Source: Planctomycetales bacterium
Lineage (GTDB): Bacteria; Planctomycetota; Planctomycetia; Isosphaerales; Isosphaeraceae
Length of the DNA: 64,000 bases
Assembly: GCA_027449865.1 (NCBI GenBank)
Contig: DAIDKV010000110.1
Location: 1 to 64,000, forward strand
Direction: 5' to 3'
The number at the start of each line of letters is the position of its first letter. Position 1 is the first letter of the stretch. Below the pieces are notes generated by a model. That model was not told the origin of the DNA. It ran no database searches and was given only the letters and a program-made list of their open reading frames with translations. The position numbers and the translations under genes are program-made. Below, in pieces: positions 504 to 13,987 of the stretch.

Positions 504-3500
504 ATGAACCGAGCGGATGCCAGTCAGGTCGGGGTCTGGGTCTTGGGGTGCCTTTGCGTGTTCGGAACCGCCTCGCGATCCGTCGGCGAGGAAGTTCGGT
601 CGAATCCGGTCCCGGGGTCCTCGGCACTGCCGGCGGCCCGAGAGGCTATCCGCCCGGCGGCTCCCGAAATTCCCCCGGCGATCGTCGGGGCGATGCAGGA
701 GGGGCGGTACGACGAGGCTCGTCAGGCGCTCAACCGACTGGCGGGGCCCACGAAGGACGCCGATGATCGAGCCTACCTGACCTACCTCCGCGCGGTCGTC
801 GAGCGTCTGGCGGGCGACGGTGCCGCCGCCCGCGAGGCCCTGGACGAGGCCCGGAAGGCCAGTCCAGGCGGCCGATGGACGGCAAGGATCGATTACGAGG
901 AGGCAGCCCTCAATCTGGCCGCCGGACGACTCGACGCCGCCGAGGAGCAGGCGCGCAAGGTCGCCGGCCGGCTGCTCGCTTCCGATCGGAAGGACCGGCT
1001 GGCCGAGGTTTACCGGGGTTTCGCCCTCAAGCTCCTGGAACCCGGCGATCCAGTGATCCCCGCCGATCCCGCGGCCGCGCGTGAGTTGCTCGACCAGGCC
1101 CGCGACCTCGCCCGAAGCCCGGACCTCCGCGCCCGGCTCCGCGAGACCATGAGTCGCGCGAGCCTCGCCTCGGGAGCCCCCTTGCAAGCGGTTCAGGATT
1201 GCCGGGCCTACCTGAACGACTTCCCCAACGGCCCCGATCGCTTCGTCGTCGAGGCACGTCTCGGCGAGGCTCTTCGGGCCGCCGGACGGCCGGACGAGGC
1301 GCGTCGGACCTGGACGGATCTCGTTGCCGAAATCCAGAGTCGAAAGCCCGCCGACCAGACCCCTCCCCTCGTCACGATCCGGGCAACGGCCCTCTACGAG
1401 ATCGCGACGACCTTCGGCATCCCGACCCCGAACGACGACGGCAACCTCGCCCTCGGCGTCGCGGCCCTCAAGCGATTCCTCGAAGCAGCGCCGACACACC
1501 CGAAGGCCGTCCGTGCCTGCTATTCCATCGGGGCCGCCTATCTACACCGCGGCAAGGCGACCGAGGCTTACAACGCCTTCGAACGCTTCCTCCGCGAGGA
1601 GGGATTCCGAATCGAGACCGACGAGGCCCGGCGCGACTGGTCGGAGCTCTCGATGGACGCCTCATTCCAGGTCGCCCGCATCCTTCAGGGGCAGCAACGT
1701 TTCGTCGCGGCGATCGCGGCCTGGCGCGGATATCTGACCCGGTTCCCCAACGGTCCCCAGGGCGCCGACGCCCAGCGCGCCATCCTCGATACCGAACTGA
1801 TGATCGCCGCCGACCACCTGACGCGGCATCATTACGTCGAGGCCCGCGCCTCCTGGTCGGAGTTTATCGCCCGCAACCCGCTCGACGACCGCGTTCCCGG
1901 GCTCCTCTTCGAGGTCGGCCGGAGCTACCGGCAGGAAGACCAGTTCGACCGCGCCATCGCCGCCTGGGAGACCCTCGCCGCCAAATTCCCACGTAGCGAG
2001 CCCGCCGCGCACGGACAGTTCGAGGCCGCCTCCATCCTTGAGACCGAGAAGGGCGACCCCACCGAGGCGATCGAACGCTTCCGCAAGATCGAGGTCGAGC
2101 CCTGGCGAACGCAGGCCCGGCAGCACGTCGCCGTGATGGAGTCGAAGCACCTCCTCGTCGTTACACCCCGCGCCTTCCGTTCGGGAGAGCCGGCACACCT
2201 GGCGATCACGACCCGGAACATCGAGACGCTGAAGTTCGACGCCTACCGCCTCGACCCCGAGGCCTACTTCCGCGCCAAGGAGTCACTCTCCCAGGTCGAG
2301 GCGCTCGACATCGGACTGGTGGCGCCCGACGCCTCCTGGACGTCGCCCGTGGCCGACTACGCGAAGTATCGCCCGACCGAGGCGAAGTATGAGCTGAAGC
2401 CGCTCAAGCTGCCGGGTGTCTACGCGGTCAAGGTGACCGACGAGAAGACCCTCCAGGCGACGACCCTCGTCGTCGGTAGCGATGTCGACGCGATCGTCAA
2501 GACGTCGCGCGAGCAGGTTCTCGTCTTCGCTCAGGACATGAAGACCGGCCGGGGCCGCGCGGGGGCCCGTGTCCTGATCGCCGATGGCAGCCAGGTCTTT
2601 CTGGAGGCGAAGACCGGCGACGACGGCGTCTTGCTCCACACCTGGAACCCCACGCGAGCACCCGGACAGGGGCTGAGTTATCTCGTGATCGACGGACCCG
2701 ACGTCGCCGGCTCGGGCCTCGCCGTTCCCGGAATGCTCGCGGAGGGAATCAGCCCGCGTGCCTACATCGAGACCGATCGTCCCGCCTATCGACCCGGCCA
2801 GAAGGTTTCCATTCGCGGCGTCATCCGCGAGGTCGAAAACGGCCATTACGCTGTGATACCAAAGGCCGCGTATCGCCTGGAGGTCCTCGACAGCCGGGGC
2901 CGGGCGTTGGTCGAACGGCCGGTCAAGCTCTCGGAATTTGGGACCTTCCACGATTCACTGCCGCTCGACCCAGGCGCGCCGGTGGGAGACTATCGAATCG
3001 TCGTCTCCGAGCCAGGCAAGAACACCTTCCACGGTAATTTCCAGGTCCAGGCGTACCAGCTTCGACCCATCGGGATGTCGATCGAGCTGGAAAAGGCCGT
3101 CGTCAACCGGGGCGAGGAGGTCCGCGCCGAAATCGTGGCGCGGTATCGATTCGGAGGACCAATCGCCGGGCATCCGATCTCGGTCCGCCTCCCCGACGAC
3201 CGAACTCTGCACGGAACCACCGACGCCGCCGGCAAGTTCCATGTCGCGTTCTCGACAAAGGAGTTCGCCGAGTATCAGGTTCTGCTGATCGAAGCCATCC
3301 TCCCCCAGGACGGCGATCGGGAGGTCGCTTATGTCAAGGTCGCCGCCCGTGGCTTCGAGATCGACGTCCGGACAGGCCGCGACGTCTACCTCGACGGCGA
3401 GTCGTTTGCGGCGGAGATCGAGACCACCGACCCACTCGGCAAACCGGTCGGCGAATCGCTCTCGGCGACGCTGGTGAAGCGGGTGAAGATCGAGGGACGG

Positions 3501-6500
3501 ATCACCGAGCGCGAGGTCGCGCGAAAGTCGGTCAAGACGGACACGAAAACAGGCCGAGGCTCGGTCACCTTCCGCGCCGACGACGCCCAGGGCGGATCGT
3601 ACCTGGTCCGCGTCGCCGGAAAGGACCGATTTGAGACGCCGATCATCGCCGATCGGGCGCTCATGATCTCGGGCCAGCAGGACGAGACGAAGCTCCGCCT
3701 GCTGACCGATCGCGTCCGGTACAAGGTCGGTGAGGAGGCAAGCATCCATCTCCACAGCCGGGGCCGATCCGGACCCGCGCTCCTGGCCTGGGAGGCCGAT
3801 CGCATCCTCGCGTACCGGATTGTCGAGCTGAAGGAGGGAGACAACGCGATCGCCTGGGCCGTCGACAACGGCCAGTTCCCCAACTTCACTCTCACCGCCG
3901 CGCGAATGTGGCGGAGCGATTTCGACCAGGCCCGGCTGGACCTCCAGGTCGAGCGCGACCTCCGCGTCTCGTTGAAGCCGTCGAGGCCCGTCGTCGGACC
4001 CGGCGAGCCGATCGAGCTGGATGTCACCACGGTCGACCAGTTGGGCCGGCCCGTCGCGGCCGAGCTCTCGATCGCGATGATCGACCAGTCGCTCCTGCAC
4101 CTCTTCCAGGACCGACTCCCCGAGATCGGGGCGTTCTTCCATAACCAGTCGCGGACGGGCTCGTTCGCGACTCGATCGACGAACACGTTCCGATATCAGC
4201 CGGGGACGATCCCGGTCCCGCAGGCGATCGTCGAGGACGCCGAGCAATCGGCCGCGATGGACGCGAACGCGGTTGAAAGGAAGACCGCGAACGCGGTTGA
4301 GGAAGAACGCTTGCTCCGTGAAGCCCAGCAGTTGGAAGCCGCGGGGAGGAACGCCCTGGGCGTTCCCATGCCTTCCCAGCAGCCGAACGGGGCCTATGCC
4401 TTTGGCGGCTTCAACGCCAGTCAAGGACAGGGGCGAATGGGCGGCATGATGGCGGGAGTGGCGAACGGCCAGGTCGCCAAAGCCCCCTCGCCCGTGGAGG
4501 CTCAATCCATGCCGAGGATGGCCCGCCCGATGACCGCGAACGAACCTGGATCTGCTGTCAGGGAATGGCGGGACAAGGCCGAACGCAGCGAGCTGGCTCT
4601 CTCGGACAGCAACAGGGCTCCCCTGGCCAAACGACGGGGCAAGGACGCCGACCTCCGTGGTGAGCCAACGCGAGAGCGGTTCGTCGAATCGGCCTACTGG
4701 AATCCCGCGGTCGTCACCGGCCCCGACGGCAAGGCCCGCGTGACGTTCAAGGCACCGTTGGCGCTCTCGGAATACCGGATCACAGCGCGAGGCGTCACGG
4801 GCTCCGAAACACTCGCCGGTCAGACCACTGCCGAACTGGCCGTTCGCAAGGACTTCTTCGTCGACCTGAAGGTTCCGGCCTCGCTCACCCAGGGCGATAA
4901 GCCGCGATTCTCGGCGGAGGTCCATCACCGGGGCGTCCGCGGGACGCTGAACCTGAAGCTCGCGACCTACGCCGGTGGCCGCGACGACGTCTTCCCGAAG
5001 AAGCTTGAGCTTGCCGGCGATGGTGTCGAGGAGGTCGCCTTCGAGCCGTACGAGGTCCCCGAGGGCGATTCGCTCCGCCTGACCCTCACGGCGACCGTGG
5101 GCCAGTCGCGCGACGAGATGGTGGTCGAGGTTCCGATTCGCCCGTGGGGCGTCCCGGCCTTTGCGTCGGCCTCGGGGACGAGCGGCGACAGCACAACCGT
5201 CTTCGTCGGCTTCCCGCCCGGCCGGACCTACGAGAATCCCGAGCTTCGAATCGCGATCGCGCCGACGGTCCGCCGAATGCTCGTCGAGCTGGCCCTCGGC
5301 TCGCCGATCGGCGTCCAGCCGCTGGCGAGCGACCTGGATAGCTTGTCGCGTTGGCTCGCGCCACCCACCAGCACGACGGCCGATCGGGCCTCCGAACTTC
5401 TGGCCGCGGCGTCGGTGCTGAGTTACCTCCGCGACGTCCAGGCCGGCGAGGCGCCCGAGGCCGTCCGGCTGGTCGATCGGATCCGCTCGCTGGTCTCCGA
5501 ACTGTCCGCTTCGCAGACCCCGGACGGAGCCTGGCCCTGGATCTCGGCCGGTCTGATTCCCGAGGCGAACGGAAAGAGGCCGATCCCCGATCACGATTGG
5601 AGGACCTCGGCCGCGGTCGTCTGGGCGATGGCCGAGGCCGAGCGACTCGGACTCCTCAGCGATCCGAAGGTCCTCGACCAGGCGGTCCGCTACCTGAAGC
5701 AACAATTCACCCAGCTTCGCCCCGCGGACCACGAGGCCCGAGCGGCAATCCTGCACGCCCTTTCCGCCCGGCACGCCGCCAGCTTCGAGGCGGCGAACGC
5801 ACTGAACCGAATTCGCAATCAGCTCTCCGACGCCGGACTCGCCTACCTGGCAATGACCTTCGCGAACCTCGACCGCCCCACGCTTGCGGCCGAGATCCTG
5901 GGAATTCTGGGTCCTCGTGCGAAGACCGAATCGGCCAGGCCGGGACGTCCCGATCGGATGTACTGGGACCGAGCAGGGCGGCAGGACTTCGTCCGGTCGG
6001 CGGCCGAGATCACGGCCATGGTCGCGATCGCCTACGCCCGGACCAGTCCCGACGCGCCCGAGCGAAAGAGGGCGGTCGCCTGGATCGAGGCGCACCGGGT
6101 CGGCGATGGCTGGCTCCCCTACAAGGCGACCGGCCCCGCGCTCGCCGCGCTGTCGCTCGACCAGGGCCGCGCCCGGGCCGCTGAGGACCGATACCAGCTC
6201 ACGGTGACGGTCAACGATGCGAAGGTCGCCACGATCGACGTCCAGTGGCCAACCGCTGGCAAGACGTTCGCGGTCCCGAGGGCCGCGGTGAAGGCCGGTG
6301 AACCGAACCGGATCCGGTTCGAGATGGAGGGCCGTGGGACGTTCGGCTACTCGGCGGTTCTCTCGGGCTTCACCCGCGACTTCGCTCCCGATCAGACCCG
6401 AGGCAACCGTGTCGCGCTCGTGGATCGCCGGGTGTATCTGAAGACCGCCCCCGAACTCGACGGCCGAACGCTCGCGACGGGCTTCTCGGTCGCCGTGGAA

Positions 6501-8774
6501 TCGGCCCAATTCGAGAACCGGGCCACGCAGGTCGGACCCGGGGGACGGGTCCGCGTCGAGCTGGATATCGTCCGGGGCGGCAAGAACGGCGAGGCCGACT
6601 GGGACCGCGAGTTCCTCATCGTGCAGGACCAGCTTCCGGCCGGAACCACGATTGTCGAGGGCTCGCTCCGGTCGCGAGCCTCATCGTACGAGATGGTCGA
6701 CGGCGTTCTCACGCTCTACTTCCCGCCCGACTCGGGGCCGTGGGAGACCTCGTACGAGATCCTCGGCTCGATCCCGGGTGAATATCGCGTGCCGCCGGCG
6801 ATGGTCCGGAGCGCCTATGAGCCGGGACGATATCACCTCGGCCGACCCGAGACGTTCCGGGTCCGCCGCCCGAACGAGCCCGACACCGACCCCTACCGCC
6901 CCACGCCCGACGAGCTCTTCGCCCGCGGCAAGGCCCACTTCGAGGCTGGCCGCTTCGAAAAAGCCGGAGAGGCGCTGGAACCGCTCTTTGGCGGCTATAC
7001 CCTCCGCGACGCCATCGCCCGGGAAGCCGCGCGGATGCTCCTGCTCATCAGCATCGGGGAGGGCCGGGCGCGGTCGATCGTCCAGTATTTCGAGGTGGTC
7101 AAGGAGAAGTCGCCCGACCTCTTTCTGAGCTTCGACCAGTTGACGGCAATCGGAGCCGCTTATCGCGACATCAAGGAATATGAGCGCGCCATGATTGTCT
7201 GGCGAGGGCTGGTCGAGGCGAGTTATCTGGAGGATGCCAGGGTGGGCGAGTTGCTCCGCCAGCGTGGGCGGAGGCTCGAGGGGCTCGCCTACCTGATCGA
7301 CCTCTGGCGGTCGTATCCGCAAACTCCGGCGATCGACGCCGACTTCTTCGGCCTTTCGCAACTTTATGTTCAGGAATCCGGCCAGGCGTTCACCGATCCC
7401 GCCCTCCGACGCGAGCTGGCCTCGGCCGGGATCACCCGGTCGCAGATGCTGCTCCAGGCGATCCGGATGATGTGGACGTTCCTCGCCGGATCGCCCCGGA
7501 GCCCGATGGCCGACGAGGCCAGCCTCTCGATTGTCGGCGGCTTCATCGAGCTGGAGGACTTCGAATCGGTGGTCCGCCTCGCCGATCGGTTCGCGCGAAT
7601 CTATCCCCGAAGCCCCTACCTCGACAGCTTCCTCTACAGCGAGGCCCTGGGCGACTTTCACCTTGGCCGGTACGACCGGGCCGTCGAGGTCGCTTCCCAG
7701 ATCGCGAAGGCCGTTTACAAGGACGCCGCCGGAGCCGAACAGCCGAGCCCGAACAAGTGGCAGGCGATCTACATCCTCGGCCAGATTTTCGATGCCCGAC
7801 GCCAGCCCGCTCGTGCGCTGGAGTACTACCGACAGGTCGCCGGACGGTTCACCGATGCCGCCGATGCGGTTCGATCGTACACGCGCAAGGAATTGAAGCT
7901 CGCCGAGATCACGGTGATTCGTCCGCCCCAGCGACCGGCCGTCGCCGCGGGGGCTCCAGGAGGCTTCCGTGCCATCGAGGCCGTCGATCCGGCCGAACCG
8001 CCGGGCGTGACCATCGAGTATCGGAACATCGCGAAGGTCGATGTGAAGGTCTACCCAGTCGACCTGATGCCGCTTTATCTTGCCCGACGCAACCTCAACA
8101 CCATCGCGGGGATCGATCTGGCCGGGATCACGCCGATGGTCGACAGGACGGTCGTCCTCGGCAGTGGAGCCGACTACGACGACCGAAAGAAGCGGATCGA
8201 ACTGCCGTTCGACCGGGACGGAGCCTACCTCGTGATGATCCGGGGCGAGGGACTGCACGCCTCGGGGATCGTTCTGGTCTCGCCGATGGAGATGGAAGCG
8301 ATCGAGGAGGACATGGGTCCGGTCACGATCGGCCCGAATTCGGTCACGGCGATGCTCGGGCGGGTGCGTGTGACGGTCCGCGACGCCCGGACTGGCGACC
8401 TGCTGCCGAAGGTCGAGGTCAAGGTGATCGGTAGCCTGGACCATCGCTTCGTCACTGGCCGGACCGATCTCCGGGGCGTCTTCGTCGCCGAGGGAGTCAA
8501 CGGCGAGATCACCGCCCTGGCGAAGGCCGGCGCGAACCGCTTCGCCTTCTATCGAGGCCGACGTTTTATCCGGGGTAACCTACCGGCGGGCGTCGGTGGA
8601 TCCGGACTTCCTGGCGGGCGGTCGGGGCTCACCAAAACACCCGAGCCCGGCCTCGACGCCCAGCTTCGAATGCAAAACTCGGCGAACGCGCTCAAGCAGG
8701 TGGAGCGATTGCAGCAGCGCTTCGGCCAGCCGAGCGGTAACCGAAAGGGCGCCTCGGCCGGTGACTTCCGTTGA
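504..8774 (+). CDS. Giant alpha-2-macroglobulin-like protein with TPR arrays
   Basis: This 2756-residue exported protein starts with a signal-type hydrophobic stretch (about residues 8-22). TPR-like helical repeats cover about 55-560. An MG2-type domain (ETDRPAYRPGQKVSIRG) lies near 755, the bait-region-type domain near 1055-1130, and a Gly/Gln/Met-rich linker at about 1250-1370. The A2M signature region (AYWNPAVVTGPDGKA) is near 1395. The thioester-type alpha/alpha barrel covers about 1595-1880 and includes DGAWPW. A second TPR block lies at about 2130-2470, followed by a C-terminal beta domain. Bacterial family members act as envelope protease traps or scaffolds. Where a CxEQ thioester would be expected (near 1600) the sequence reads GVQPLASDLDSL, so no covalent thioester is visible. 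The ATG follows the 5' region directly with no competing upstream start in frame. Confidence 0.9.
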   Translation: MNRADASQVGVWVLGCLCVFGTASRSVGEEVRSNPVPGSSALPAAREAIRPAAPEIPPAIVGAMQEGRYDEARQALNRLAGPTKDADDRAYLTYLRAVVERLAGDGAAAREALDEARKASPGGRWTARIDYEEAALNLAAGRLDAAEEQARKVAGRLLASDRKDRLAEVYRGFALKLLEPGDPVIPADPAAARELLDQARDLARSPDLRARLRETMSRASLASGAPLQAVQDCRAYLNDFPNGPDRFVVEARLGEALRAAGRPDEARRTWTDLVAEIQSRKPADQTPPLVTIRATALYEIATTFGIPTPNDDGNLALGVAALKRFLEAAPTHPKAVRACYSIGAAYLHRGKATEAYNAFERFLREEGFRIETDEARRDWSELSMDASFQVARILQGQQRFVAAIAAWRGYLTRFPNGPQGADAQRAILDTELMIAADHLTRHHYVEARASWSEFIARNPLDDRVPGLLFEVGRSYRQEDQFDRAIAAWETLAAKFPRSEPAAHGQFEAASILETEKGDPTEAIERFRKIEVEPWRTQARQHVAVMESKHLLVVTPRAFRSGEPAHLAITTRNIETLKFDAYRLDPEAYFRAKESLSQVEALDIGLVAPDASWTSPVADYAKYRPTEAKYELKPLKLPGVYAVKVTDEKTLQATTLVVGSDVDAIVKTSREQVLVFAQDMKTGRGRAGARVLIADGSQVFLEAKTGDDGVLLHTWNPTRAPGQGLSYLVIDGPDVAGSGLAVPGMLAEGISPRAYIETDRPAYRPGQKVSIRGVIREVENGHYAVIPKAAYRLEVLDSRGRALVERPVKLSEFGTFHDSLPLDPGAPVGDYRIVVSEPGKNTFHGNFQVQAYQLRPIGMSIELEKAVVNRGEEVRAEIVARYRFGGPIAGHPISVRLPDDRTLHGTTDAAGKFHVAFSTKEFAEYQVLLIEAILPQDGDREVAYVKVAARGFEIDVRTGRDVYLDGESFAAEIETTDPLGKPVGESLSATLVKRVKIEGRITEREVARKSVKTDTKTGRGSVTFRADDAQGGSYLVRVAGKDRFETPIIADRALMISGQQDETKLRLLTDRVRYKVGEEASIHLHSRGRSGPALLAWEADRILAYRIVELKEGDNAIAWAVDNGQFPNFTLTAARMWRSDFDQARLDLQVERDLRVSLKPSRPVVGPGEPIELDVTTVDQLGRPVAAELSIAMIDQSLLHLFQDRLPEIGAFFHNQSRTGSFATRSTNTFRYQPGTIPVPQAIVEDAEQSAAMDANAVERKTANAVEEERLLREAQQLEAAGRNALGVPMPSQQPNGAYAFGGFNASQGQGRMGGMMAGVANGQVAKAPSPVEAQSMPRMARPMTANEPGSAVREWRDKAERSELALSDSNRAPLAKRRGKDADLRGEPTRERFVESAYWNPAVVTGPDGKARVTFKAPLALSEYRITARGVTGSETLAGQTTAELAVRKDFFVDLKVPASLTQGDKPRFSAEVHHRGVRGTLNLKLATYAGGRDDVFPKKLELAGDGVEEVAFEPYEVPEGDSLRLTLTATVGQSRDEMVVEVPIRPWGVPAFASASGTSGDSTTVFVGFPPGRTYENPELRIAIAPTVRRMLVELALGSPIGVQPLASDLDSLSRWLAPPTSTTADRASELLAAASVLSYLRDVQAGEAPEAVRLVDRIRSLVSELSASQTPDGAWPWISAGLIPEANGKRPIPDHDWRTSAAVVWAMAEAERLGLLSDPKVLDQAVRYLKQQFTQLRPADHEARAAILHALSARHAASFEAANALNRIRNQLSDAGLAYLAMTFANLDRPTLAAEILGILGPRAKTESARPGRPDRMYWDRAGRQDFVRSAAEITAMVAIAYARTSPDAPERKRAVAWIEAHRVGDGWLPYKATGPALAALSLDQGRARAAEDRYQLTVTVNDAKVATIDVQWPTAGKTFAVPRAAVKAGEPNRIRFEMEGRGTFGYSAVLSGFTRDFAPDQTRGNRVALVDRRVYLKTAPELDGRTLATGFSVAVESAQFENRATQVGPGGRVRVELDIVRGGKNGEADWDREFLIVQDQLPAGTTIVEGSLRSRASSYEMVDGVLTLYFPPDSGPWETSYEILGSIPGEYRVPPAMVRSAYEPGRYHLGRPETFRVRRPNEPDTDPYRPTPDELFARGKAHFEAGRFEKAGEALEPLFGGYTLRDAIAREAARMLLLISIGEGRARSIVQYFEVVKEKSPDLFLSFDQLTAIGAAYRDIKEYERAMIVWRGLVEASYLEDARVGELLRQRGRRLEGLAYLIDLWRSYPQTPAIDADFFGLSQLYVQESGQAFTDPALRRELASAGITRSQMLLQAIRMMWTFLAGSPRSPMADEASLSIVGGFIELEDFESVVRLADRFARIYPRSPYLDSFLYSEALGDFHLGRYDRAVEVASQIAKAVYKDAAGAEQPSPNKWQAIYILGQIFDARRQPARALEYYRQVAGRFTDAADAVRSYTRKELKLAEITVIRPPQRPAVAAGAPGGFRAIEAVDPAEPPGVTIEYRNIAKVDVKVYPVDLMPLYLARRNLNTIAGIDLAGITPMVDRTVVLGSGADYDDRKKRIELPFDRDGAYLVMIRGEGLHASGIVLVSPMEMEAIEEDMGPVTIGPNSVTAMLGRVRVTVRDARTGDLLPKVEVKVIGSLDHRFVTGRTDLRGVFVAEGVNGEITALAKAGANRFAFYRGRRFIRGNLPAGVGGSGLPGGRSGLTKTPEPGLDAQLRMQNSANALKQVERLQQRFGQPSGNRKGASAGDFR

Positions 8775-8889: not shown

Positions 8890-9312
8890 ATGAAACGGAT
8901 GATCTCCGCCGCCTTGATCCTCGCGATCGCAGGCCTGGCTCTCTCACGGATCACGAAGGCGGGCGACGGCCCGGCTCACCGGGTCTTCGAGTTGCGCACC
9001 TACCACACGAATGAGGGCAAGCTCGACGACCTGAACAAGCGGTTCCGCGAACATACGTGCGACCTGCTCAAGAAGCACGGCGCCGAGCTGGTCGGCTTCT
9101 GGACGCCGACCGATGAGAAGAACGGCAAGGGGAACACCCTGGTCTACATGCTGGCTTTCCCGAGCCGAGAGGCCGCGAAGAAGTGCTGGTCCGAGTTCGG
9201 CGCCGATCCCGAGTGGCGCAAGGTCTACGCGGAGAGCCACAAAAATGGGGTGCTGGTGAAGAAGGTCGAATCGGTCTTCCTTGAACCGACTGATTACAGC
9301 CTGCTCCATTGA
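8890..9312 (+). CDS. Exported NIPSNAP family protein
   Basis: This 140-residue protein has an N-terminal hydrophobic signal (MKRMISAALILAIAGLALS). It is followed by a NIPSNAP dimeric alpha/beta-barrel domain with the usual features: FELRTYHTNEGKLDDL, a central GFWTP segment, and a late AFPSREAAKKCWSEFGADPEWRK region. The biochemical role of bacterial NIPSNAP proteins is not settled, and secreted versions are common in planctomycetes. GAGGAG about 10 nt upstream supports the start. It is downstream of the macroglobulin gene but has its own promoter-like element. Confidence 0.85.
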   Translation: MKRMISAALILAIAGLALSRITKAGDGPAHRVFELRTYHTNEGKLDDLNKRFREHTCDLLKKHGAELVGFWTPTDEKNGKGNTLVYMLAFPSREAAKKCWSEFGADPEWRKVYAESHKNGVLVKKVESVFLEPTDYSLLH

Positions 9313-9339
9313 CAGGTCGGGGAACAACCACGATGTGAC

Positions 9340-9530
9340 TGGTCGGGGAGCAACCACGAAAAACACGAAAACACACGAAATAAAATCCTACTCCGATGAG
9401 ATTCCACTTTGAATCTGGGGATTTTTCGTGTCCTCCGTGATTTTCGTGGTTCCTCCGAGATTTACTCTGGAATCTGGAATTCGGAAGTCTTTTCGTGCCC
9501 TCCGTGATTTTCGGGCTTCCTCCGAATCGA
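9340..9530. repeat. Intergenic palindromic repeat (CGTGT-CCTCCGTG family)
   Basis: Two near-identical direct copies of a TTTTCGTG(T/C)CCTCCGTGATTTTCG-type unit lie at 9422-9460 and 9489-9527. An inverted, degenerate partner (ACCACGAAAAACACGAAAA) lies at about 9351-9372. The word GGAATCTGGAATTC occurs between the copies (9469-9482). Similar units recur in many planctomycete genomes and generate spurious Asn-His-Glu-Gly-His peptides in translation. The 3' end of the HD-GYP gene runs into this element. Confidence 0.75.
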
Positions 9531-10680
9531 GTTCCCGTCCCAGGGCGACATCGACCGCGCCGATGAGGCTCTCCCCGAGTCCTTTCTGCCCGATGGCCTC
9601 TAACTCCGCCCGGCAGGCAAAAAGGGCCTCGATGACTCGCGGGTCCCACTGTTTTCCGCGTCCCTTGTCGAGGATTTCCTGGATCTGCATCAGACCCATC
9701 CGTCGACGGTACGGGCGGCTGCTCGACATGGCGTCGAACGAATCGGCAACGGCCAGAATTCGGGCCTCGATCGGAATGTGATCGCCTGCGAGACGGTCGG
9801 GGTAGCCGGTGCCGTCGTAGCTCTCGTGATGATGGCGAACGCCCGGCAAGATATGGCTGAGCCGCTTAAGGTCCTTGAGGATGTTCACGCCGATCTCGAC
9901 GTGTCCCTGGATCTTCCGGTATTCCTCGTCCGAGAGTGGGCCCGACTTCTTCAGCACTTCATCCTCGATCCCGATCTTGCCGACGTCGTGCAGCAACCCG
10001 GCGAGGTAAAGGTCGCTCCGTCGCTCGGGGGGGATGCGTAGCTCCTCGGCGATTCGGACCGCGATCCTAGCCACGCGTTCGGAGTGTCCTGACGTATAAG
10101 GGTCCTTGGCGTCGATCGCGGCGGTCAGCGAGCGAACGACGCCGAAGAGCAGTCCTTTCACCTCGGCATACGCCCGGGCGTTGGCAAGCTGGGCTTCGAT
10201 CAGTGCGGCGACGTAATGCAGCCGCTCCAGTTCCTGCGCGGAGAACGAGCGTCCGCCGGGGGGATTCAGGGCGATCAGCCAGCCCGACGGCCCCGACGCC
10301 GCCGCGGCCTGGCGATGCACTTCGGGTGGGGCATCTGGCGGCGGTCGATCGACCACGATCGGATCGTCCCGAATGGGGTCCACGCCCACCCGAGGGATTA
10401 GCGCCCGGTATCCGATCGGTTCGAGCCCCGCCACCTGGCCCGCGACAATCGGCGGCAAAACCGGTTCGCGCGGAACCCAGCTGACCGATCCCGCCCCAGT
10501 CGACGAACGAAAAACCGTGACCGCCAGATGCTGGAACCGTTCCGGCGGCTCGGAGACTCGCAGCCGTCGAATCAGCCGGCCGATGACCACGTGCTCATCG
10601 TCCTCGTCCTGGCCCGACATCGACGGCAAGCTCGCTCCCTCGGTCGCAGTCGATGGATTCATCTCGCTCTCGCCGTACAT
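9388..10680 (-). CDS. HD-GYP domain cyclic-di-GMP phosphodiesterase
   Basis: A roughly 430-residue protein. The N-terminal ~180 residues look like a degenerate GAF-type sensory domain and are followed by a short helical linker. A full HD-GYP domain comes next: HSERVARIA, LLHDVGKIGI, a GHVEIG segment, then HHESYDGTGYPDRL. These are the metal- and substrate-binding residues of active c-di-GMP phosphodiesterases. The start at 10680 (MYGESEMN) is chosen because longer versions run under the divergent kinase gene; 10662 is an alternative. The last ~40 residues (from about RKSRRARKDF) are encoded by the intergenic repeat at 9340-9530, so the native C-terminus probably ended earlier. Confidence 0.85.
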   Translation of the reverse strand: MYGESEMNPSTATEGASLPSMSGQDEDDEHVVIGRLIRRLRVSEPPERFQHLAVTVFRSSTGAGSVSWVPREPVLPPIVAGQVAGLEPIGYRALIPRVGVDPIRDDPIVVDRPPPDAPPEVHRQAAAASGPSGWLIALNPPGGRSFSAQELERLHYVAALIEAQLANARAYAEVKGLLFGVVRSLTAAIDAKDPYTSGHSERVARIAVRIAEELRIPPERRSDLYLAGLLHDVGKIGIEDEVLKKSGPLSDEEYRKIQGHVEIGVNILKDLKRLSHILPGVRHHHESYDGTGYPDRLAGDHIPIEARILAVADSFDAMSSSRPYRRRMGLMQIQEILDKGRGKQWDPRVIEALFACRAELEAIGQKGLGESLIGAVDVALGRELDSEEARKSRRARKDFRIPDSRVNLGGTTKITEDTKNPQIQSGISSE

Positions 10681-10867
10681 GAGACAGCCCCTAGATCCGC
10701 ACGCACGAGAGAACCCTAGTTCACGGATCCTCATGACGCCACTGGCCCTCACAAGTTGGACAGCCTCGCGAAACGGGGCTAAAGATTCCTGAAGGCGGGG
10801 TTCGTCGAGAGCCGCGGGCTGGGCTCGTCGTCGGACCGATTCTGAGCCGCCGGACGGGGAGCATCGG

Positions 10868-13800
10868 ATGTCGGAGCAAACGACGAGTGGAGTCTCGGAT
10901 CCTGGTTCGGTCGGGCGAATCCTCGACGGCTGGCGGCCTGCCGACTCGTCGGTCGAGCTCTCAACTCCCGGGCCGATGGGCCTTCCCGAGACGGCCATTC
11001 ACCCAGCGCGAAGGGGAGGGATCGACTCCCTCGGCTTCCTCGACGGTTTCAGTGTCGGCGGGCCGGACACCCGAGAGGGCGGCGCGCCGGCGCTCTCCGA
11101 GGACGCCACCGTGCTCCGCGCGAAACGTCTCGAGGGCACGGCAAGGATTCCGGCCAATGGTCCTGTTCGTCGATCGACCGCGGGACCGCCCAGGTCCAGC
11201 GCGCTGCCGGGGGTGGGCGATGTCCTGGCCGGCTTCCGCATCCTCCGCGAGCTGGGCCGAGGCGCCTTCGCGCGGGTCTTTCTCGCCGAGGAGCTGCACC
11301 TCGGCGGGCGCTCCGTCGCCATCAAGGTCTCGCGGGCCGAGGGAGACGAGCCTCGCATCCTGGCCCGGCTTCAGCACGCGAACATTGTCCCGGTTCATTC
11401 CGTCTGCGACGACCCGGAGACGGGCCTCCGCGTTCTTTGCATGCCCTACTTCGGCGGCGCCAATCTCGCGCAGGTCCTCGACCTCGCTGGCCCGAGGGCC
11501 CCAAGTGCCCGTTCGGGCCGGAGCCTCGTCGACGCGATCGATCGGATCAGCCGAGTTGGTCCGGAAGGTTCCAGTCACCGGGCGCTCGGATTGACAGCTC
11601 CCTCGCCGACCGCGATCGCGCGTCCGCTCGCCCTTCCCTCGGCGACAGACTCGGGGAGCGGTTTCGGGCTTCGTTCGGTTCTGGGCCGAATGCTTGGGAG
11701 TGCCGAGCCGGCTCCTTCGAATCCCGAGGCGGCCCCCGATCTCCACGACGATCCTCACCAGCCGGCTCGACAGTTTCTCCGGGGCGCCTCGGCGATTCAG
11801 GCGGCCGTCTGGATCGTCGCCCGGCTGGCCGAGGGACTCGACCACGCTCACTCCCGGGGCCTGTATCACCGCGACATCAAGCCGGCCAACATCCTGTTGA
11901 CGGCCGACGGCACGCCGATGCTCCTGGATTTCAACCTGGCGGCCGAGGCCGATCCCGACCCGGCCGACGCACGAATCGGCCGGGCGATGCTCGGCGGCAC
12001 ACTTCCTTACATGGCTCCCGAGCACCTCGACGCCTTCAGCCCCCGCGGCCAGACCGCGCCTGAGGAGGTCGCCGAGCGAGCGGACATATACGCGCTCGGG
12101 CTGATCCTCTTCGAGATTCTCGCGGGCGAGCATCCCTTCCCAACCCCCGATTGTCCCCGGGGCACCTCACCGGGCGAGATCATCGGCCCGATGATCGAGG
12201 CCCGTCGAAATCCCCCCTCGATTCGTGCCCGGTGCCCATCCGTCCCGTGGAGTCTCGACGCCCTTGTTCGCAAGTGCCTCGATTTCGATCCCTCGAATCG
12301 CTACGCCCGCGCTCGCGACCTGGCCGAGGACCTTCGCCGATTCCTCGACGATCAGCCGATGCTCCACACTCCCGAGCCCAGCCTGCGCGAGCGGGTCGGC
12401 AAGTTCTCGCGACGCCACCCGGTCCTCTGTAGCTCCACCTCGATCACGACGATCGCCGCGATGCTTATCCTGGCGCTCGGCGTGGGTGTCGCGGCGGTCC
12501 ACTCGGGAATGCGGGGACTCGTCGCCCGGTTCCATCGGCAATCGTTCGAGCGCGAGTTCACCGAGGCCCAGTTCCTGCTCAACACCGCGGCCGGCTCCGA
12601 CCGGCACCTCGACGCCGGACTCGCTCGCGCGGAGACCCTCCTCGACCGCCTCGAACTGGCCGACAACCGCCGCGATCCCAGTGTCGATTGGTTCCAGGGA
12701 CTGACGACGCCCGAGCAGGACCGGCTCCGCGAGCAGATCGCCGACCTCTTGCTCCTCGAAGCCCGGGCTCGCGTCATGAAGGCGAGCCGCCGTGGAACCA
12801 TGGCGAGCCGGAAGACCGCGCTCGAGCGGGCCGTCGCGCGACTCGATCGAGCCGCGAGGCTGGTCGATCCGATCCCGCCGGCGCTCTACGCGGATCGCGC
12901 TCGATACCTCGATGAGCTGGGCGAGAAGGCGCTCGCCCAGCTCGACCGCCGACGTGCCCTGGAGGCTCGTCCGGCTGGCCCTCACGACTGGACGATGCTG
13001 GCGACGAGCCTTCTGGCCGCTGGCGATCCCGCCGCCGCCGAGGATGCCGCCCGCAAGGCTCTCCGGCTCGACCCAACCTCGTTCTGGGCCTGGTTCGTTA
13101 TGGGTCATTGCCACTTCGCCCAGGAGCGGTTCCTGGAAGCGGCCGGCGACTTCTCCGCCTGCACGGCGATCGGTTCACCGTTCGCGTGGGTCCACTTCAA
13201 CCGAGGCCTGGCCCTCGCCCGCGCCGGACGCCTCGACCCAGCACGCGACGCCTACGATCAGGCCCTACGGATCGACCCCGAATTCAGCGAGGCCCGCGTG
13301 AACCGGGCCCTGATCGACCTCGAACAGGACCGAGTCCAGGCAGCGCACGACGATCTCTCGATGGCGATCCGGCTGGGTCGGACCGACGCCGGCGTCCTCG
13401 CAGCTCGTGGTGAGGCCCTGGCGCGGCTCGGCCGATCCGACGAGGCGCGCCGGCAGTTCGACGACCTCCTCACCCGCAAGCCGGATGACGCCGTGGCCCG
13501 CGTCGCGCGCGGCATGACGCTCCTCCGAACGGAGCCGCGCGACGCCCTCAACGACTTCAACCGCGTCCTGGCCCACGATCCCCGCCACGCCGGCGCCCAC
13601 TTCGGCCTGGCGATGCTCGTCCGGGGCCACGACGCCGAGGCGGCGCTGAACCACCTCGACACCGCGATCACGACCGACCCGAACCACCTCGACGCGATCC
13701 AGCTCCGGGCCCTGATCCGCGCCCGACTGGCCGACCCCTCCGCGCTCGACGACGTCGCCCGGCTCCTCCGCGCCCCAACCGCCCGCCGCTATTACAACGC

Positions 13801-13987
13801 CGCCTGCGCCGTCGCGATCTACGCCGAGAAGGCCCACCAGCCAAAGCAGCTCGCCCACGCGATGGAACTTCTCATCCGCGCCGTCGAACTGGGATTCCCC
13901 GCCAGCGAGGCCCAGACCGATCCCGACCTCGCCCCACTCCGCCCCATGCCAAGATTCCAGCGGTTGGTTGTTCCGGGCCGAGGTTGA
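10868..13987 (+). CDS. Membrane Ser/Thr protein kinase with C-terminal TPR domain
   Basis: 1039 residues. After a ~115-residue disordered N-terminus comes a PKN2-type kinase domain: glycine loop LGRGAFARVF (near 127), VAIKV lysine, HRDIKPAN catalytic loop (near 334) and an APE-like MAPEH. The activation-loop motif is DFN instead of DFG. About 90 extra residues separate the two lobes (roughly 205-305). A transmembrane helix follows (about 525-548), then a long TPR array to the end, predicted to be extracytoplasmic. The gene is divergent from the HD-GYP gene with 187 bp between starts. GGGGAG upstream supports the ATG. Substrate and signal are unknown. Confidence 0.88.
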   Translation: MSEQTTSGVSDPGSVGRILDGWRPADSSVELSTPGPMGLPETAIHPARRGGIDSLGFLDGFSVGGPDTREGGAPALSEDATVLRAKRLEGTARIPANGPVRRSTAGPPRSSALPGVGDVLAGFRILRELGRGAFARVFLAEELHLGGRSVAIKVSRAEGDEPRILARLQHANIVPVHSVCDDPETGLRVLCMPYFGGANLAQVLDLAGPRAPSARSGRSLVDAIDRISRVGPEGSSHRALGLTAPSPTAIARPLALPSATDSGSGFGLRSVLGRMLGSAEPAPSNPEAAPDLHDDPHQPARQFLRGASAIQAAVWIVARLAEGLDHAHSRGLYHRDIKPANILLTADGTPMLLDFNLAAEADPDPADARIGRAMLGGTLPYMAPEHLDAFSPRGQTAPEEVAERADIYALGLILFEILAGEHPFPTPDCPRGTSPGEIIGPMIEARRNPPSIRARCPSVPWSLDALVRKCLDFDPSNRYARARDLAEDLRRFLDDQPMLHTPEPSLRERVGKFSRRHPVLCSSTSITTIAAMLILALGVGVAAVHSGMRGLVARFHRQSFEREFTEAQFLLNTAAGSDRHLDAGLARAETLLDRLELADNRRDPSVDWFQGLTTPEQDRLREQIADLLLLEARARVMKASRRGTMASRKTALERAVARLDRAARLVDPIPPALYADRARYLDELGEKALAQLDRRRALEARPAGPHDWTMLATSLLAAGDPAAAEDAARKALRLDPTSFWAWFVMGHCHFAQERFLEAAGDFSACTAIGSPFAWVHFNRGLALARAGRLDPARDAYDQALRIDPEFSEARVNRALIDLEQDRVQAAHDDLSMAIRLGRTDAGVLAARGEALARLGRSDEARRQFDDLLTRKPDDAVARVARGMTLLRTEPRDALNDFNRVLAHDPRHAGAHFGLAMLVRGHDAEAALNHLDTAITTDPNHLDAIQLRALIRARLADPSALDDVARLLRAPTARRYYNAACAVAIYAEKAHQPKQLAHAMELLIRAVELGFPASEAQTDPDLAPLRPMPRFQRLVVPGRG

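Follow-up and report, generated by a model that had tools for sequence, protein, structure and literature searches.

The window analysed here, 64,000 nucleotides of DNA from a Planctomycetales bacterium, opens with a gene for a giant protein in which the initial annotation saw a macroglobulin without a thioester and with a TPR block on either side of its core. The question raised by this locus is what such a molecule might do without the means of covalent capture, and how so extended an architecture came about.

The gene and its product

The gene occupies positions 504–8774 of the forward strand. Its open reading frame (2756 aa, ATG start) was confirmed, as were the macroglobulin core and TPR blocks of the product, the earlier description of which proved right but incomplete. 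An antisense frame of 1184 aa (2955–6509, reverse strand) overlaps the gene and in all likelihood merely reflects the high GC content of the coding strand. Within the host genome (8.48 Mb, 99.4 % complete, 278 contigs) the gene gives the sole match to the A2M model PF00207, and the protein as a query finds itself alone at E ≤ 1e-3. The nearest named records, labelled Planctomycetales bacterium, are approximately 90 % identical. At the same threshold, 53 of the 59 genomes searched (the bacterium's own and 58 relatives) contain a match, including 34/36 of those from the same genus or family; the two lacking one are G014 (81 % complete) and G023 (99 % complete), and G010 is matched by short fragments only. 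As G023 is 99 % complete and belongs to the same family, the giant macroglobulin is not indispensable. Values of dN/dS well below 1 in close pairs mark it as a conserved coding gene, which is under purifying selection. Complete frames of the family span 2383–3039 aa; towards the lower end lie four shorter giants (L125, L126, L130 and L131; 2383–2586 aa) in which Pfam sees the macroglobulin domains weakly, with its A2M, bait-region and bMG10 models all missing L130.

Hydropathy reveals a hydrophobic segment at the N-terminus (residues 1–28; 504–587, forward strand), a probable export signal peaking at around residues 10–23, and signal-like N-termini are present, as judged by eye, in many orthologues. 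Beyond residue 40 no 19-mer exceeds 1.26; with one N-terminal hydrophobic segment and no other that is membrane-like, the sequence suggests an exported protein, soluble or loosely anchored. From hydropathy and likeness, we infer a periplasmic location.

Domain architecture

All features described below lie on the forward strand. TPR array 1, identified by Pfam and by similarity as BamD/YbgF/CpoB-like, covers residues 55–540 (666–2123), with TPR-type Pfam matches between about residues 314 and 529. It is followed by a pair of macroglobulin (MG) domains ahead of MG2 (545–748; 2136–2747), recognised by profiles and by a Pfam bMG3 match (660–718) that, at 30.9 bits, falls below its cut-off of 34.9. 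The core then begins with a series of beta sandwiches running from MG2 to the bait-region domain (749–1230; 2748–4193), as defined by the Pfam models MG2 (752–848, 5.4e-21), MG3 and A2M_BRD (1064–1200, 2e-10). A linker at the bait position (1245–1388; 4236–4667) leads into the A2M signature domain and the residues following it (1395–1545; 4686–5138; Pfam A2M at 1397–1474, 1.5e-11). Thereafter come a predicted thioester-domain (TED) fold (1588–1892; 5265–6179) and the second half of the core with bMG10 (1906–2115; 6219–6848; Pfam match at 2010–2107, 9.7e-8). TPR array 2 (2130–2475; 6891–7928) is supported by profile comparison, a structural model and a TPR_18 match (2317–2388, 1.8e-5), and precedes a second, C-terminal MG pair (2478–2690; 7935–8573) and a predicted helix (2717–2740; 8652–8723) drawn from alignment and a low-confidence model (its residues 596–619). 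The TPR-core-TPR layout initially described thus holds in so far as a TPR array stands on either side of the core, but each array is joined to an MG pair, such that the actual arrangement is [TPR + MG pair]-core-[TPR + MG pair].

The two ends of the molecule resemble each other. When the C-terminal pair (2478–2740) was compared by hhalign with the N-terminal pair (545–748), a probability of 97.7 % was obtained (E 1.4e-12), with 17 other segments of the same protein reaching at most 9.1 %. The two TPR arrays likewise align, at 96.6 % probability; since TPRs generally align with each other, this is weak evidence for duplication, and it is the MG pair that carries the claim. A profile of the C-terminal pair (33 members) has as its best PDB match the NIE-MG1 fragment of E. 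coli A2M (E 1.9e-5), then a second E. coli A2M fragment (6.4e-5), and in third place a collagen adhesion protein (6.7e-5), whose rank indicates that the C-terminal half of the pair is also like generic Ig-type domains. In searches with a structural model of the whole C-terminal block (three sequences used; low mean confidence, pLDDT 53.4), the same A2M fragments appear at ranks 7 and 9 amongst TPR structures; the VIA rows are TPRs with Z of 13–16, within the helical-repeat range where such scores warrant caution. In L126, L132 and L042 the C-terminal copy is partly matched by Pfam bMG3, each time below the cut-off of that model.

The block is also widely distributed. Its profile matches 124/294 planctomycete genomes at E ≤ 1e-3 and 87/294 at E ≤ 1e-20, the set comprising genomes at least 80 % complete, the bacterium's own included. 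Amongst the stronger matches, 40 stretches were chosen by hand as distant members of the family; all 40 encode both end blocks as judged by family models, and in all 40 the N- and C-terminal MG-pair models cross-recognise both ends (11–62 bits). No C-terminal TPR-MG block was detected in 14 ordinary planctomycete macroglobulins, nor in E. coli YfhM. On these profile comparisons, the C-terminal MG pair is a duplicate of the N-terminal pair. Several of the weaker block matches (G080:C2, G122:C72, G160:C169, G211:C320 and others) are interrupted by a single TAG or TGA in frame, perhaps where the alignment runs past the end of the gene. A tblastn search with the block against 72,556 plasmid records, made with plasmid spread in mind, returned no match.

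The thioester domain

The CxEQ motif is present in 0/39 rows of the giant family alignment, the window protein included. The initial annotation had named a cysteine elsewhere in the barrel as the finding that would overturn its claim; cysteines occur in this protein only at residues 16, 18, 233 and 339, and none lies within the TED. A thioester concealed elsewhere in the molecule was considered and is ruled out by these two observations, which also bear out the suggestion that covalent capture by the thioester mechanism does not apply. The proposal that GVQPLASD stands where CxEQ would be fared less well: CxEQ is indeed absent, but GVQPLASD (1603–1610) sits in a variable, gappy loop and is no conserved replacement motif, and profile alignment places the CxEQ position slightly downstream, near PTSTTADRAS, where the loop is again variable. 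This remodelled former thioester loop, delimited by family and profile alignment, covers residues 1599–1626 (5298–5381). By chance, CxEQ occurs outside the TED in L103, L108, L142 and L066.

The Pfam TED model finds no match in the giant protein. A profile of the TED from the clade of the window protein nonetheless aligns with that of 18 thioester-bearing TEDs over 317 columns (E 6.9e-38). A structural model of the domain (four sequences used; low mean confidence, pLDDT 50.2, with a better predicted helical centre) retrieves many near-tied macroglobulin and complement structures, of which the complement C5 TED is the best single-domain row (269 residues, 3.5 Å, Z 21.2); E. coli ECAM aligns over 236 residues (4.0 Å, Z 19.0). 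Model and profile comparison together indicate that the predicted TED fold is kept in the absence of the thioester. With MG domains, an A2M signature and this fold, the protein belongs to the alpha-macroglobulin superfamily. Complement C5 itself lacks a thioester; it shares the TED fold with the giant, has no TPRs, and operates in a different setting, and the two losses are presumably independent. A late-TED motif, sought as a loose pattern in whole proteins, is found in 7/15 ordinary macroglobulins including YfhM, in 6/9 thioester-bearing giants and in 1/62 others, a count that is only suggestive.

A hypervariable linker at the bait position

Within the interior of the protein, conservation is lowest at residues 1251–1400. 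Between conserved flanks, the bait slot varies from 113 to 315 aa among rows that no contig end truncates, and its dN/dS (0.41–0.79) is the highest of the measured segments in 6/6 close pairs, with the others ranging from 0.04 to 0.35 (one of the six gave no value for the C-terminal pair). In the window protein the linker is rich in Ala, Met and Gln, with Gly raised only slightly; Met/Gly runs occur in the slot of several orthologues. Rapid evolution of this kind is the pattern of a bait, but an unconstrained loop may look alike. In L042 and L044 the linker harbours an insertion some 90 residues long, which we take to resemble the short N-terminal domain of secretin and TonB proteins (STN-like); no Pfam match is found there in L042.

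Distribution and loss of the thioester

Whilst the giants close to the window protein uniformly lack CxEQ, the wider family does not. Nine of the 40 distant members (L132–L140) carry YGCxEQ at the TED position, a further two (L141 and L142) have GGGLET where sister proteins have YGCLEQ-type motifs, and in the remaining 29 no CxEQ is seen there. Its retention in nine giants implies that the giant layout is apparently older than the loss. Amongst the ordinary planctomycete macroglobulins fetched, CxEQ is found in the TED of 13/14, as it is in E. coli YfhM.

Trees were inferred quickly under LG+G4 with SH-aLRT support only, and no step explicitly excluded the columns of the thioester loop. The larger tree comprises 85 rows, namely 31 of the 39 near rows, the 40 distant members and 14 of 15 ordinary proteins (L069, without a core match, was left out). 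The smaller, of 73 rows, was obtained by dropping 12 (six long-branch or flagged, six near-copies). In the 73-row tree a branch with support of 100 separates 63 giants from 10 ordinary rows, and another, also at 100, has on one side the 52 thioester-less giants other than L141 and L142. The thioester label changes three times on this tree, one change being L060, an ordinary protein with a 2062-aa frame, which is the one of the 14 without CxEQ and nests among thioester-bearing rows. In the 85-row tree, the ordinary proteins L071, L064 and L067 fall beside thioester-less giants, so that there the giants do not form one clade. With rooting on the ordinary proteins, the simplest reading would be that the first proteins of giant layout had a thioester and that it disappeared twice, in the large clade of the window protein and in L141/L142.

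Relationship to known macroglobulins and gene neighbourhood

Of the solved structures, YfhM (ECAM) is amongst the best sequence relatives of the giant (E 2.5e-59), and with it and Salmonella A2M, both Type I, the giant shares MG domains, the TED fold and bMG10. It differs from YfhM in lacking CxEQ, in being approximately 1100 residues longer, in its TPR arrays and second MG pair, and in having no pbpC neighbour. Accordingly, two features of Type I, CxEQ in the TED and (in a number of bacteria) a linked PBP1C gene, are absent. Ordinary planctomycete macroglobulins (frames of 1640–2257 aa) share the core from MG2 to A2M and mostly bMG10, yet are the reverse of the giant in their thioester and C-terminal block, with CxEQ in the TED of nearly all and the TPR-MG block in none. 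Type II proteins (MagD/YfaS) are described as having a TED without CxEQ, a bait region and a six-gene mag operon (PMC5764988). The giant resembles them in a TED devoid of CxEQ and has, at the bait position, a linker that may correspond to theirs, but adds TPR arms and a C-terminal MG pair, and no mag-type operon was found. Furthermore, its loss of the thioester is placed by the giants' own tree, which contains no MagD/YfaS rows, among thioester-bearing giants.

At 19 loci (the window and 18 others), no cluster of neighbouring genes recurs in more than seven, as counted from crude open reading frame calls that include spurious antisense frames in GC-rich DNA. The commonest, at 7/19 loci, is a kinase-TPR family that flanks the gene upstream and downstream alike in L047, L048, L049 and L055 and is therefore probably a large paralogous family. 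Of 18 neighbours scanned with Pfam, five have no match and the rest are of mixed function. In the window little of the upstream region is present, the gene beginning 503 bases from the contig end; downstream (8890–13987) lie genes for a NIPSNAP protein, a protein with an HD domain and a TPR-bearing protein kinase, none of them unusual. In E. coli, yfhM adjoins pbpC, and DUF2138 is YfaA, encoded beside yfaS, and is equated with one of the mag genes. Neither the yfhM-pbpC pair nor a yfaS-yfaT-yfaA or mag-type cluster is seen, and in the host genome a single model each for PBP_1c and DUF2138 gave no match. As these searches revealed neither a conserved neighbour nor a gene for PBP1C or DUF2138, the proposal that the protein is tied to a partner gains no support from genetic linkage. 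The TPR arrays may bind unlinked partners or mediate self-assembly.

A possible link to CAGE

In macroglobulins, MG6 is split by the bait region and CUB by the TED. The CAGE complex is a megadalton, hollow, homotetrameric cage of ciliates and slime moulds (Tetrahymena CAGE1, Dictyostelium AbpF) with bacterial homologues, and its role is left open in the preprint that describes it (PMC12485934). As printed there, CAGE1 (2216 aa; Tetrahymena paralogues 1890–2418 aa) consists of helical domains 1–2 (1–443), beta sandwiches 3–8 (444–1195) with domain 8 split (963–1021 and 1151–1195), beta domain 10 interrupted by helical domain 11, then beta domain 12, helical domains 13–14 (1751–2011) and beta domain 15 (2014–2215). 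Domains 4 and 6 match alpha-2-macroglobulin by Foldseek, and domains 1 and 13 are alike, with no PDB match for either (PMC12485934). This order of blocks, alpha, six beta sandwiches, split beta around alpha, beta, alpha, beta, appears to fit that of the giant. From the printed boundaries, it could be read as TPR1, the MG chain with its MG6 interrupted by the bait, CUB interrupted by the TED, then MG10, TPR2 and the C-terminal MG pair, and the likeness of domains 1 and 13 as the repeat at the two ends of the giant.

There are differences. Domain 11, at about 210 residues (PMC12485934), is smaller than a TED, and the giant has Pfam domains where the same text reports none for CAGE1. Some distant giants, such as L130, have nevertheless degenerated enough to escape the A2M, bait-region and bMG10 models of Pfam, which makes drift of this kind possible. 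No CAGE chain is present among the best 60 of 312 PDB matches or 10 of 10, which is uninformative if its structure is unreleased. That the giants are the bacterial CAGE family, and CAGE a macroglobulin that has lost its thioester and bears its TPR-MG front end twice, with the nine YGCxEQ members as intermediates, is a reading to which we would give slightly less than an even chance.

Proposed mechanism and alternatives

A protease trap is plausible in view of the MG domains, the TED fold and the hypervariability of the bait-position linker. In this proposal the protein would sit in the periplasm, a protease would cut the linker, the macroglobulin ring would rearrange, and the two TPR-MG arms would either enclose the protease or link several subunits into a cage. 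Capture would be physical rather than covalent, as reported for thioester-less MagD of Pseudomonas, which traps a protease (PMC5764988). Against this, a giant without a thioester may no longer change conformation. Taken as a whole, the account of a probably exported, thioester-less macroglobulin from a widespread planctomycete family, its front end repeated at the C-terminus, acting as a non-covalent protease trap or cage, appears to us evenly balanced between right and wrong.

An alternative is a constitutive cage, container or chaperone, a CAGE-like homo-oligomer in which cleavage triggers nothing and the linker is merely a disordered loop. The loss of the thioester loop favours it, as do the hollow homotetramer of CAGE with its fitting alpha/beta order and the report that CAGE homologues are most prevalent in Pseudomonadati, above all Planctomycetota and Verrucomicrobiota, and that most of the bacterial ones have a predicted signal peptide (PMC12485934). 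The conserved flanks of a linker that evolves faster, in a bait-like manner, than other measured segments, and the survival of CxEQ in some relatives, argue the other way, and we regard this alternative as unlikely, if deserving of attention. More doubtful still is an envelope scaffold, with two TPR arms docking envelope proteins and the macroglobulin core a mere spacer: the TPRs do resemble those of YbgF, BamD and CpoB, and TPR2 is among the better-conserved parts, but conservation of the core roughly equals that of the TPR-MG arms, the core keeps its macroglobulin order, and there is no conserved neighbour gene. A standard Type II macroglobulin, its operon partners either dispersed in the genome or superseded by the extra arms, would agree with the published description (no thioester, a bait-position linker), and is highly improbable given neighbourhoods free of mag-type genes and a genome without a DUF2138 match.

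A search of open-access literature (titles and abstract openings) found no TPR-macroglobulin-TPR architecture in planctomycetes, bar the possible CAGE link. The giant represents a macroglobulin architecture that is widespread in planctomycetes and repeats its front end, and surviving thioester-bearing giants indicate that the thioester was lost after this architecture arose. The possible link to CAGE is an attractive one. If it is true, an origin and a function, that of a protease trap, would be offered for the CAGE complex; the nine planctomycete proteins with YGCxEQ would be living intermediates, and the cage would have begun as a covalent protease trap.
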